64,000 nucleotides of DNA from a candidate division WOR-3 bacterium (lineage in GTDB: Bacteria > Hydrothermota > Tepidihabitantia > Tepidihabitantales > Tepidihabitantaceae). Below, one piece after another: positions 12,709 through 15,655 of this stretch (position 1 is its first letter; each line of letters starts with the position of its first letter). The translations under genes were made by a program, and so were the position numbers. Below the pieces are notes generated by a model. It was not told where the DNA came from. It saw only the letters and a list, made by a program, of their open reading frames with translations, and did no database searches. The stretch spans positions 1,014,576 through 1,078,575 of the forward strand of contig JANLFQ010000001.1 in the NCBI GenBank assembly GCA_024653355.1, read 5' to 3'.

Positions 12709-13965
12709 ATGCCCAGGATTTATTTTGACCACGCTTCAGCAACTCCGGTTTTACCTGAGGCGTTCGAAGCGATGGTCCCTTTTTTCAAAGATGAGTTTGG
12801 TAACCCGCAAAGTTTCCATCAGTTTAGCCGGAAGGCAAAACAGGCGATTGAACAAGCCCGACACCAGGTTGCCCGCTTTATTAATGCACCGGCAGAATCC
12901 ATAATCTTTACCGCATCTGCCTCCGAGAGTAACAATCTGGCGCTTAAAGGTTTTGCCCTTGCCAATAAATCCCGCGGTAACCACATTGTCGTCTCAGCGA
13001 TTGAACACTTCTCGGTTCTTGAACCGCTTAAAACCCTGAAACGGCTCGGGTTTGACTACACAATTTTACCGGTCGACCAGTACGGACTCGTCGATATCGA
13101 ACAACTGAAACGAGCGCTTCGCCCCGAAACCATCCTCGTCTCAATAATGCACGCCAACAACGAAATCGGCACAATTGAACCGCTTGAAGAGATTGTTGCG
13201 GCGTGCCATGAGAGAAACATTCCCGTACATTCTGACGGCACCGCAGCGGTGGGCAGAATTCCGGTTGATGTGACCGAACTCGGTGTCGACGCCTACTCTT
13301 TTTCTGCGCAGTCATTTTACGGTCCGAAAGGCGCCGCCGCACTCTACCTGAAACCGGGTAAAAGGATTGTGCCCTTGATTGAGGGCGGCATTCAGGAAAA
13401 AGGACGCCGGGCAGGGAGTGAAAATGTTCCGGCAATTGTCGGTATGGGCAGGGCAGCCGAAATATGCCAGAAACAGATCGACCAGTGGTCAGAAAAGATG
13501 CAAGCGCTTGCTCGCCGGATTGTCAATGAACTGCCCAAAAGGATTGAACGCCTTGTGTTTACAGGCCATCCGGAAAAACGGTTACCCGGCCATGTCAGCC
13601 TGTGTGTTGAATTTGTTGAAGGCGAGGCGATGCTCTTATCTCTTGATGACCAGAACATTGCTGCGGCATCCGGCTCAGCCTGCACCGCCCGCAGTCTGAA
13701 GGCATCCCATGTCCTGCTCGCGATTGGCTTACCGCACGCTGTCGCCCAATCTTCACTTGTCCTCACGCTGGGCAAAGACAACACCGACGCTGATATTGAC
13801 CACTTTCTAACCCAATTCCCACCGATTGTTCAGCGGTTACGCTCCTTTTCACCACTTTATGCCCGTTATGTCAAAGGTGAAGACCCATACCAGTTCAAAC
13901 CCGGCACCGAAGAACACCAGACTGGACATGAGCCGGAATATCGGGAAAATATAAAAGAAGGGTAA
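12709..13965 (+). CDS. IscS/NifS-family protein lacking the PLP-binding lysine
   Basis: A 418-residue class V aminotransferase-fold protein, clearly an IscS/NifS homologue: FDHASATPVLPEA at the N-terminus, His100 in SAIEHFSVLEP, Asn151 in HANNEIG, Asp176, and the mobile-loop cysteine Cys325 in SGSACTARS. Two PLP contacts are replaced. The family motif S-x-H-K before YGPKG reads SAQSFYGPKG, so the Schiff-base lysine is Ser202 (TCA, 13312-13314) and the preceding histidine is Gln201. The glutamine after Asp176 is Ala179. A classical PLP-dependent cysteine desulfurase is therefore unlikely. Archaeoglobus fulgidus IscS is a known precedent lacking this lysine. The C-terminus is about 25 residues longer and polar. 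It is followed after two bases by iscU. No Shine-Dalgarno precedes the ATG. Confidence 0.88.
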   Translation: MPRIYFDHASATPVLPEAFEAMVPFFKDEFGNPQSFHQFSRKAKQAIEQARHQVARFINAPAESIIFTASASESNNLALKGFALANKSRGNHIVVSAIEHFSVLEPLKTLKRLGFDYTILPVDQYGLVDIEQLKRALRPETILVSIMHANNEIGTIEPLEEIVAACHERNIPVHSDGTAAVGRIPVDVTELGVDAYSFSAQSFYGPKGAAALYLKPGKRIVPLIEGGIQEKGRRAGSENVPAIVGMGRAAEICQKQIDQWSEKMQALARRIVNELPKRIERLVFTGHPEKRLPGHVSLCVEFVEGEAMLLSLDDQNIAAASGSACTARSLKASHVLLAIGLPHAVAQSSLVLTLGKDNTDADIDHFLTQFPPIVQRLRSFSPLYARYVKGEDPYQFKPGTEEHQTGHEPEYRENIKEG

Positions 13966-13967
13966 TT

Positions 13968-14366
13968 ATGTATTCAGAAAAGGTAATGGACCACTTTCGT
14001 AACCCGCGTAATGTCGGGGAGATTGAAAATCCCGATGGCGTTGGAGAGGTCGGCAATCCGGTTTGTGGTGATATGATGACATTCTACATCAAGGTTGAGA
14101 ATGGAGTTCTTACCGATGTCAAATTTAAAACCTTTGGCTGTGGCGCTGCCATTGCGGTTTCATCAATGGTGAGCGAGATGGCAAAGGGCAAGACAATTGA
14201 AGAAGCGTTAAAGATTACCAATGAAGCGGTCGCTGCCGAACTGGGCGGCTTACCGCCGAACAAACTACACTGCTCCAACCTTGGTGCCGACGCCCTTCAC
14301 GCCGCAATTAAGGACTACCTCAACAAATCAAAGAAAAATGCTGTTGATAAGAAGGAGGAGAAATGA
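13968..14366 (+). CDS. iscU: Fe-S cluster assembly scaffold IscU/NifU-N
   Basis: A 132-residue scaffold on which Fe-S clusters are built. The three ligand cysteines are present: Cys33 (GNPVCGD, with Asp35), Cys58 (FGCGAAIA) and Cys102 (LHCSNLG). The protein starts MYSEKVMDHFRNPRNVG like archaeal and NifU-type scaffolds. It lacks the LPPVK motif of HscA-dependent IscU, which fits the absence of hscA/hscB here. Cotranscribed with the lysine-less IscS homologue, its presumed partner. The stop overlaps the next start (ATGA), and GGAGG lies just upstream of that start. Confidence 0.95.
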   Translation: MYSEKVMDHFRNPRNVGEIENPDGVGEVGNPVCGDMMTFYIKVENGVLTDVKFKTFGCGAAIAVSSMVSEMAKGKTIEEALKITNEAVAAELGGLPPNKLHCSNLGADALHAAIKDYLNKSKKNAVDKKEEK

Positions 14367-14557
14367 GAGCCAGACGAGTGCCTGGCTGTCGCTGCCCTTA
14401 TTGTGACGAGCCGCTCCTTGAAGGAGAACAGTTCTGCAAACCCTGCGGCGTGGAAATTGTCTACTGCCCGGAATGCAAAAAACCGTTGCCCCGGGGTAGC
14501 AACAAATGTCCGGAATGCGGTAAGGAAGTTAAAAAAAGTCACGGGAGGAAAAGATGA
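14363..14557 (+). CDS. Small double zinc-ribbon protein
   Basis: 64 residues with four CxxC pairs: Cys11/14 (CPYC), Cys25/28 (CKPC), Cys35/38 (CPEC) and Cys49/52 (CPEC), which fold as two zinc ribbons, plus Cys9 and a basic C-terminal tail. It overlaps iscU and the following glutaredoxin-like gene by ATGA on both sides, so it is a real, coupled gene. Function unknown. In this operon it could be a metal-binding adaptor, but rubredoxin-like or nucleic-acid-binding roles cannot be excluded. Confidence 0.8.
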   Translation: MRARRVPGCRCPYCDEPLLEGEQFCKPCGVEIVYCPECKKPLPRGSNKCPECGKEVKKSHGRKR

Positions 14558-14838
14558 ATCTGACCCGAATAAGTGGCACGAACAAAAAACACCGGGTGAC
14601 TCTTTACGCCCTTTCCACCTGCGGCTGGTGTCGGCGCGCCAAAGATTTGTTTAACGCCAACAACATTGAATACGACTACATCGATGTTGACCTGTGCGTG
14701 GGCGAGGAGCGGGAGGAAGTTATCAATCAAGTTCAAAAACTAAACCCCCGGGTATCATTTCCCACGATTCAGATTGACGATTCGGTTGTTGTTGGATTTG
14801 ACGAAGAGAGGATTAAACAACTCCTGGAAATCAAATGA
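14554..14838 (+). CDS. Glutaredoxin/thioredoxin-fold redoxin (CGWC)
   Basis: 94 residues with a thioredoxin fold: strand VTLYALST, active site Cys23-Gly-Trp-Cys26, and the cis-proline segment VSFPTIQIDD. It resembles NrdH- and glutaredoxin-like proteins of anaerobes, with one extra cysteine (Cys48). Directly coupled (ATGA) to the downstream FTR-type reductase, it is the natural candidate substrate of that enzyme. The first ten residues are an unusual polar extension. Confidence 0.9.
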   Translation: MNLTRISGTNKKHRVTLYALSTCGWCRRAKDLFNANNIEYDYIDVDLCVGEEREEVINQVQKLNPRVSFPTIQIDDSVVVGFDEERIKQLLEIK

Positions 14839-15353
14839 GCGTCGAGGAATTTTCGCCCGAGATTGAGCAGGTCTACGAGCAGTTGAAAAAAGAAGCCGAA
14901 GAGGGGGGCTACCACCTCAACCCTGATAAACAGTTCACCCTCAGACTGATTCAGGGGCTTTTGACCAATGAGAAGCGGTTCGGCTACCGTGCCTGCCCCT
15001 GCCGTATCGCGTGGGGTGAAAAGCCCAAAGACATTGACATCATCTGTCCCTGCTACTATCGCGACTCCGACCTTGAGGAGTTCGGTGCCTGCTACTGCGG
15101 CTTGTATGTCAGCGAGGAGTGGATTAAAGGTAAAGTTCCTCGGAAATCAATCCCGGAACGCCGCCCCGCAAAATTTGCAATTGAAGGTTACTCAGAATCA
15201 AAACCATCAGACCAAACCGGACAGGTACCCAACCGCCTTCCTTATCCGGTCTGGCGCTGCAAAGTTTGTGGCTATTTGTGTGCCCGGCCCGAGCCGCCGG
15301 GCAAATGTCCGGTTTGCAAGGCAACAAAAGACCGATTTGAACGGTTTATGTAA
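14835..15353 (+). CDS. Ferredoxin-thioredoxin reductase catalytic domain fused to rubredoxin domain
   Basis: A 172-residue protein. Residues about 10-95 are the FTR catalytic chain with all six cysteines that hold the [4Fe-4S] centre and the redox disulfide: Cys54/56 (CPC), Cys71/73 (CPC) and Cys86/88 (CYC, where plant and cyanobacterial enzymes have CHC). After a linker of about 45 residues, residues 138-172 form a rubredoxin-like domain with Cys142/145 and Cys158/161 (WRCKVCGY, KCPVCKA). Such fusions are known as ferredoxin:disulfide reductases in methanogens. It likely passes electrons from ferredoxin to the redoxin encoded just upstream, whose stop overlaps this start. Confidence 0.93.
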   Translation: MSVEEFSPEIEQVYEQLKKEAEEGGYHLNPDKQFTLRLIQGLLTNEKRFGYRACPCRIAWGEKPKDIDIICPCYYRDSDLEEFGACYCGLYVSEEWIKGKVPRKSIPERRPAKFAIEGYSESKPSDQTGQVPNRLPYPVWRCKVCGYLCARPEPPGKCPVCKATKDRFERFM

Positions 15354-15364
15354 GGATACAAGAT

Positions 15365-15655
15365 ATGCCTATTGTTGAAATCAGTGTTGTGCCGGTCGGT
15401 ACTGGTTCGCCGAGCGTAAGTCATTTTGTGCGTGCCGCAGTTGAGGTTGTTAAAAGGAGCGGGCTAAAACACGAACTCAATCCCATGGGCACCTGCATCG
15501 AAGGCGACTGGGACGCAATCTTTTCCCTGATAAAAGATATTCACGAAACCCTCGTTACGATGGGCTGTTCTCGTTTGGTCACTACAGTCAAAATTGACGA
15601 CCGGCGTGACAAACAGGTTACGATGAAAGAAAAGGTGGCAAGGGTTAGTGACTAA
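15365..15655 (+). CDS. UPF0045/MTH1187 family protein
   Basis: A 96-residue protein with the family opening VEISVVPVGTGSPSVSHFV and the GTCIEGDW and TTVKIDDRRDK blocks. Members form ferredoxin-like-fold oligomers and some bind thiamine precursors. Last gene of the Fe-S/redox operon, 11 bases after the FTR fusion. Its exact role is unknown; the conserved linkage is with thiol/redox genes here. Its stop codon lies inside a long hairpin. Confidence 0.88.
   Translation: MPIVEISVVPVGTGSPSVSHFVRAAVEVVKRSGLKHELNPMGTCIEGDWDAIFSLIKDIHETLVTMGCSRLVTTVKIDDRRDKQVTMKEKVARVSD

Follow-up and report, generated by a model that had tools for sequence, protein, structure and literature searches.

The locus studied here raises the question of what an IscS protein does beside iscU when it lacks the PLP Schiff-base lysine. 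The gene lies in a window (the whole stretch of DNA analysed, 64,000 nucleotides from a candidate division WOR-3 bacterium) and its product, which we call IscS*, is a clear IscS/NifS homologue of fold type I (class V aminotransferases), encoded without any internal stop. The original prediction, made from the DNA letters alone, was that IscS* is not a cysteine desulfurase and that it works as a scaffold or cluster-ligand partner. The first part is now well supported, and the second is still the best reading of the data, as argued below. The features on which the argument is built are collected in Table 1.

Table 1. Features of the IscS* gene and of the genes that follow it (window positions; E. 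coli IscS numbering for the equivalent residues)
Feature	Position	Strand	Basis and remarks
IscS*, Lys-less IscS homologue, 418 aa	12709..13965	+	ORF; Pfam Aminotran_5 (PF00266), 251 bits; AlphaFold2 model
His100 = His104, kept	13006..13008	+	47/47 Lys-less
Asp176 = Asp180 (contacts PLP pyridine N), kept	13234..13236	+	47/47 Lys-less
Ala179 for Gln183 (contacts PLP O3')	13243..13245	+	alignment; not diagnostic here
Gln201-Ser202 for His205-Lys206 (PLP Schiff-base lysine)	13309..13314	+	alignments; same residues in G001, G002, G014
Cys325 = loop Cys328, invariant; candidate ligand of the cluster, or handle for sulfur	13681..13683	+	47/47 Lys-less, 71/71 K+
Arg328 + Lys331, basic signature of the cysteine loop	13690..13701	+	alignment; K+ enzymes mostly Gly/Ser + Glu/Asp
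Val351 for Arg354 (binds substrate alpha-carboxylate)	13759..13761	+	alignment; R in 71/71 K+, 0/47 Lys-less
iscU (NifU_N), sole one found in genome; Cys33, Asp35, Cys58, Cys102, His101 intact	13968..14366	+	TIGR03419, 207.6 bits, above cut-off
Double zinc ribbon protein, 64 aa	14363..14557	+	Pfam Zn_ribbon_3, DZR; position conserved in family
Dithiol glutaredoxin (CGWC)	14554..14838	+	Pfam Glutaredoxin; 15/16 family operons
Ferredoxin:thioredoxin reductase (FTR) catalytic (beta) domain fused to rubredoxin domain	14835..15353	+	Pfam FeThRed_B, RUBY_RBDX; 15/16 family operons
MTH1187-family thiamine-binding protein, likely last operon gene	15365..15655	+	TIGR00106, above cut-off; in most family loci

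The motif region of IscS* reads YSFSAQSFYGPKG (codons GCG CAG TCA TTT TAC GGT CCG AAA, 13306-13329), within a stretch at 13297-13332 that translates as SFSAQSFYGPKG. It is ungapped in the tblastn and MAFFT alignments, which place Gln201 (13309-13311) on E. coli His205 and Ser202 (13312-13314) on Lys206; the E. coli IscS reference sequence was verified at the eleven catalytic positions. These alignments bear out the residues originally given for the missing lysine and its surroundings, Ala179 included, as well as the retention of His100, Asn151 (the equivalent of Asn155), Asp176 and Cys325. No substitute lysine was found in the motif, the nearest one, Lys207 of YGPKG, being the ordinary GPKG lysine that lysine-containing (K+) proteins also have. 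IscS* scores under every NCBIfam cysteine-desulfurase cut-off (456.8 against 530.75 for NifS and 366.2 against 643.2 for IscS) and misses that of PRK02948 (289 against 304), which is passed by L001 (317.8), the K+ paralogue of the same genome; L001 is likewise under the NifS and IscS cut-offs of NCBIfam. The AlphaFold2 model of IscS*, built on a 21-sequence alignment, reached pLDDT 87 and pTM 0.87, with low confidence for the cysteine loop (324-330) and the tail. The best PDB matches of this model by Foldseek were A. fulgidus IscS D199K (4r5f) and A. fulgidus IscS (4hvk), followed by human ISC core complexes and by A. fulgidus IscS in complex with IscU (4eb7, 4eb5), with TM-scores to IscS entries of up to 0.97 when normalised by target length.

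We have compared active-site residues in 118 homologues, 47 without Lys206 and 71 with it; many of the 47 are close mutual relatives, so these counts are not independent events, and the pattern nonetheless spans many phyla. Lys206 and Arg354 occur together in 71 of the 118 and are jointly missing from the other 47, and these two columns alone split the sets completely: column 354 is R in all 71 K+ proteins and V, L, T or I in all 47 Lys-less ones, in which the lysine position is occupied by S, Q, T, D, R, A, P, V or N. The loss of Arg354, which was absent from the original prediction, is at the level of sequence a second and stronger mark beside the loss of Lys206. Outside this set, further K+ copies from related genomes all have HK and R, and two further Lys-less copies are without R. 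Neither set shows any variation at loop Cys328, His104 or Asp180, and His205, Gln183, Asn155 and Ser203 are relaxed in the Lys-less one. In addition, E. coli Glu334 is replaced by Lys in 44 of the 47 Lys-less proteins (E/D in 64 of 71 K+) and position 331 is Lys or Arg in 39 of them. The loss of Gln183 was dropped as a diagnostic, because the K+ NifS paralogues of WOR-3 genomes (L120-L138, L001) also have Ala, Ser or Cys there, with HK and Arg intact. The C-terminal tail is longer in Lys-less proteins (median 26 vs 10 residues, by a rough tail call); we do not take it as proof of IscU binding, of which it is suggestive at most, since the short-tailed A. fulgidus IscS still binds IscU. Some Lys-less copies of genus g3 (L023, L035 and L151) are longer than the window protein by an apparent insertion, L035 having 455 aa.

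Several of these residues have been studied in working enzymes. According to H. pylori NifS work, as cited in PMC9978102, Arg354 anchors the substrate cysteine by its alpha-carboxylate, and in E. coli IscS the K206A and most other active-site variants are inactive, R354K alone being fully active (PMC9978102). With Lys206, His205 and Arg354 gone from a clade that purifying selection maintains, it is well supported that IscS* would be devoid of desulfurase activity.

The setting of the gene is also informative. IscS* and iscU are separated by 2 bases, and 4-base overlaps continue onward through the zinc ribbon, glutaredoxin and FTR-rubredoxin genes, after which comes the MTH1187 gene. Of the earlier statement that IscS* is cotranscribed with iscU, the gene layout stands, and an operon is what this layout, its one support, leads us to infer. 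No HscA, HscB, Fdx or IscA genes were found in the operon. A genome-wide search of the window's genome (98% complete) detected one iscU and one small NifU-C protein, and neither a SufB/D core nor an A-type carrier (Fe-S_biosyn). We also looked for a second, lysine-containing desulfurase and found one: the sole other close IscS homologue of this genome, the NifS-type L001, keeps HK and Arg and lies on another contig, C4, at 70230-71381, so that IscS* adjoins the only recognised scaffold and a complete K+ desulfurase is encoded elsewhere. Given this single IscU, and with neither a SUF core nor an A-type carrier detected, IscS* and IscU probably make up the main or only general Fe-S scaffold of the cell. 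A SUFBD core match was obtained in only 3 of 61 relatives, and beyond these relatives 14 of the 19 genomes that encode a Lys-less IscS showed no SUFBD core.

This arrangement is maintained in the window's family (f1), where the Lys-less gene occurs in 16 of 18 genomes (own included), is directly upstream of iscU in 16/16 and is followed further on by the glutaredoxin and FTR-rubredoxin genes in 15/16; a K+ paralogue with HK and R is present in the window's own genome and in 14 others of the family. Of the two exceptions, G007 (86% complete) shows no IscS and G008, which is without the Lys-less gene, carries next to iscU a K+ IscS that retains HK and Arg (L155:3876-5410), a natural replacement; therefore catalysis and IscU pairing are not incompatible in the lineage. 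The IscU proteins encoded beside Lys-less IscS keep Cys37, Asp39, Cys63, His105 and Cys106 in 29 of 29 partners, and they differ consistently from the IscUs of K+ loci at several positions, some of them near the ligands (Val40 to Met, Lys42 to Thr, Ser69 to Val and Val102 to Asn). These differences are consistent with co-evolution with the Lys-less IscS, a comparison confounded by shared ancestry.

Lys-less IscS proteins are already known from archaea. A. fulgidus IscS, invoked as precedent in the original prediction, partners IscU and is reported to be inactive as a desulfurase and to provide a cysteine ligand to the [2Fe-2S] cluster (PMC7585200). We checked its active-site column in 4eb5 and 4r5f, the latter having Lys at the Schiff-base position (D199K), and the precedent holds: A. 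fulgidus IscS (IscS2; 4eb5, 4eb7, 4hvk and the mutant 4r5f) has the same fold as IscS*, 45-46% identity to it and the best structural match, and it has lost the same four residues (Lys to Asp, His205 to Asn, Gln183 to Ala and Arg354 to Leu) while keeping the loop cysteine. Both are paired with iscU, which in the window is adjacent and has its ligands intact. Unlike A. fulgidus IscS, the window protein has Ser202 rather than Asp, a longer C-terminal tail and a place in the bacterial branch of the free trees; unlike the A. fulgidus system, its operon includes zinc ribbon, glutaredoxin and FTR-rubredoxin genes and the pair is the only recognised scaffold, with no SUF core. Methanosarcina acetivorans IscS1 is described as likewise without the PLP lysine and paired with IscU1 (PMC7585200); this archaeon also has a working IscS2U2 and SufBC. 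With E. coli IscS/IscU and the MIS system (MisS-MisU) the window shares the fold, the two-gene S-U core, the loop cysteine and intact IscU ligands and, as in MIS, iscS*-iscU is a stand-alone pair, the only one in the genome, with no SUF core. However, MisS is a catalytically competent cysteine desulfurase of type I, whereas Lys206, His205, Gln183 and Arg354 of E. coli IscS are absent from IscS*.

On the active-site losses, their conservation, the gene order and the single recognised scaffold, which are directly observed, we base the explanation that we favour, and to which we give somewhat better than even chances: IscS* would be a catalytically dead IscS serving as structural partner of IscU, with Cys325 ligating or capping the nascent cluster and with sulfur provided as sulfide or by the K+ desulfurase. 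IscS* and IscU would form an (IscS*-IscU)2-like complex, and in it Cys325 would extend into the active site of IscU, there to ligate or cap a [2Fe-2S] cluster under assembly, after the example of A. fulgidus. Sulfur would arrive as sulfide in the anaerobic cell, or from the separate NifS-type enzyme, and the co-encoded glutaredoxin and ferredoxin/rubredoxin-linked reductase could supply electrons or keep thiols reduced, which is the job of Fdx in ISC. A supply of sulfide has precedents, as H2S restores anaerobic Fe-S synthesis to E. coli without iscS, with IscU required (PMC13015791), and sulfide is the cluster sulfur in M. maripaludis (PMC10500019). The most economical reading would be that IscU is fed with sulfide and helped by an inactive IscS, with Cys325 of the latter as ligand or shield of the nascent cluster and with glutaredoxin, FTR and rubredoxin as redox helpers; complex formation, cluster ligation, the sulfur source and the electron route are all inferred.

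The main rival to the dead-partner explanation is a persulfide relay, in which Cys325 would take sulfane sulfur from the K+ desulfurase (or, in relatives, from DsrE-type carriers) and pass it to IscU or other acceptors, with glutaredoxin and FTR freeing sulfide. The loop cysteine invariant in 47 of 47 Lys-less proteins, the glutaredoxin-FTR genes co-encoded in f1 and the K+ paralogue in the same genomes would all suit such a relay, and it is kept alive by the neighbours of the gene in other families. In the order, Lys-less IscS is found beside iscU in f2 and f5 genomes too, and other families of the order and class have Lys-less IscS in which A, T or Q replaces the lysine; in f3, f4 and f9 the gene lies beside rubrerythrin or DsrE-type genes and not iscU, so the pairing of Lys-less IscS with IscU is not universal. 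The f4 and f9 genes adjoin DsrE_2 and DsrE sulfur-carrier genes (L142:3089-3559, L148:3516-4010, L144:7345-8547), neighbourhoods that suggest a second, sulfur-relay or stress-linked role for the Lys-less clade. However, a search of the window's own genome found no DsrE_2 protein, so we rejected DsrE_2 as its sulfur source, and the tight iscU linkage in f1 fits cluster building as well or better. Moreover, accepting persulfide from another desulfurase would be an unusual role for the IscS fold, and we consider the relay unlikely for IscS*, at about one chance in four. Among the f4/f9 set, G023 also has ODP-type metallo-beta-lactamase/flavoprotein, hybrid-cluster (Prismane) and rubredoxin genes by its Lys-less IscS. 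In G019 (L140:2526-5175) the Lys-less gene follows three ferritin-like genes, of which the two tested match Pfam Rubrerythrin, and iscU lies on a separate contig.

Residual or altered PLP/PMP chemistry, that is, non-covalent PLP or PMP supporting a slow or different reaction without the lysine, appears quite improbable to us. With His104 and Asp180 never varying, IscS* may yet bind a PLP-like ligand that matters for it, and Thr or Ser is kept at phosphate position 243 in 46 of 47 Lys-less proteins. Furthermore, the K206A variant of E. coli IscS retains part of its PLP (PMC9978102), and 4EB5 is drawn with PLP even though A. fulgidus IscS is without the lysine (PMC9769115). Against such chemistry, the arginine needed to hold the amino acid is lost in 47 of 47, the residues Gln183, His205, Asn155 and Ser203 are relaxed and the residue at the lysine position is unconserved. 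Known PMP enzymes, by comparison, fix a histidine at that position. Finally, one missing catalytic residue can be an error, and yet a decaying pseudogene or an assembly or sequencing artefact, which no result here favours, is refuted to near certainty by the comparative data, since relatives have the same Gln-Ser pair from different codons (which rules out the sequencing error once considered at 13309-13314), dN/dS between G000 and G001 is ~0.13 (0.092/0.73), 49 homologues conserve the Lys-less state and the operon is intact in 16 family genomes. The gene is thus real, intact as first described, and under purifying selection.

Returning to the dead-partner explanation, we asked how far Lys-less IscS extends. 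A scan of 84,980 species genomes, in which the best 80 of at least 578 loci were kept, most of them from metagenome bins, and which gives a lower bound, yielded Lys-less IscS-like proteins in about ten other bacterial phyla. Among these best 80 loci were sequences from Planctomycetota (Scalindua), Nitrospirota (Magnetobacterium and others), Thermodesulfobacteriota, Chloroflexota, Bacillota, Omnitrophota, Saganbacteria, Elusimicrobiota, Zixibacteria and Pseudomonadota, together with one Methanophagales archaeon. A. fulgidus IscS and M. acetivorans IscS1 are already known as Lys-less; what appears to be new here is the breadth of the bacterial set, marked by two diagnostic residues, together with genomes where such a protein partners the sole scaffold. 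In the literature searched, which takes in few subscription journals, we found no report of bacterial Lys-less IscS elsewhere. A dead IscS fixed beside IscU in genomes without SUF separates the donation of sulfur by IscS from its role as partner of IscU, and makes testable the long-standing question whether anaerobes need cysteine sulfur for their Fe-S clusters or whether sulfide and an IscU partner are enough. The anaerobes with a dead IscS, in WOR-3 and in the other phyla, probably build their clusters from sulfur supplied some other way. A wider proposal, in our opinion falling a little short of even chances, is that the widespread Lys-less, Arg-less clade of anaerobes together with IscU represents general Fe-S assembly without cysteine sulfur, being in SUF-less WOR-3 the sole, sulfide-fed scaffold, with IscS as cluster ligand or chaperone and glutaredoxin-FTR-rubredoxin as the electron line. 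As homology annotation likely labels such genes 'cysteine desulfurase', desulfurase counts in anaerobes may be too high.

In trees built with the eight diagnostic columns removed and searched freely, 45 bacterial Lys-less proteins and one K+ protein (PDB 9wep) formed one group (SH-aLRT 99 and 97 in two trees), and A. fulgidus IscS and its Methanophagales relative grouped with K+ archaeal and Parcubacteria sequences (SH-aLRT 98 and 96). Although these free trees suggest that the lysine was lost independently in A. fulgidus, the AU tests of a single clade give no support to this and we do not claim it: one clade of all Lys-less proteins was not rejected (p = 0.375), and a constrained one-clade tree with 9wep was 24 log units better than the free search found (p = 0.787). 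The losses in the window and in A. fulgidus may then represent one event or two. The 9wep protein (PDB 9wep/9wer/9wew) is a Lys-containing cysteine desulfurase that gives the best PDB sequence match, carries the loop Lys characteristic of the Lys-less proteins and groups with the Lys-less clade; it could be near the ancestor before lysine loss, or misplaced. A Methanophagales archaeon (L091:131-3618) has an A. fulgidus-type IscS, with Asp at the lysine site, and iscU, in divergent orientation beside a K+ IscS.
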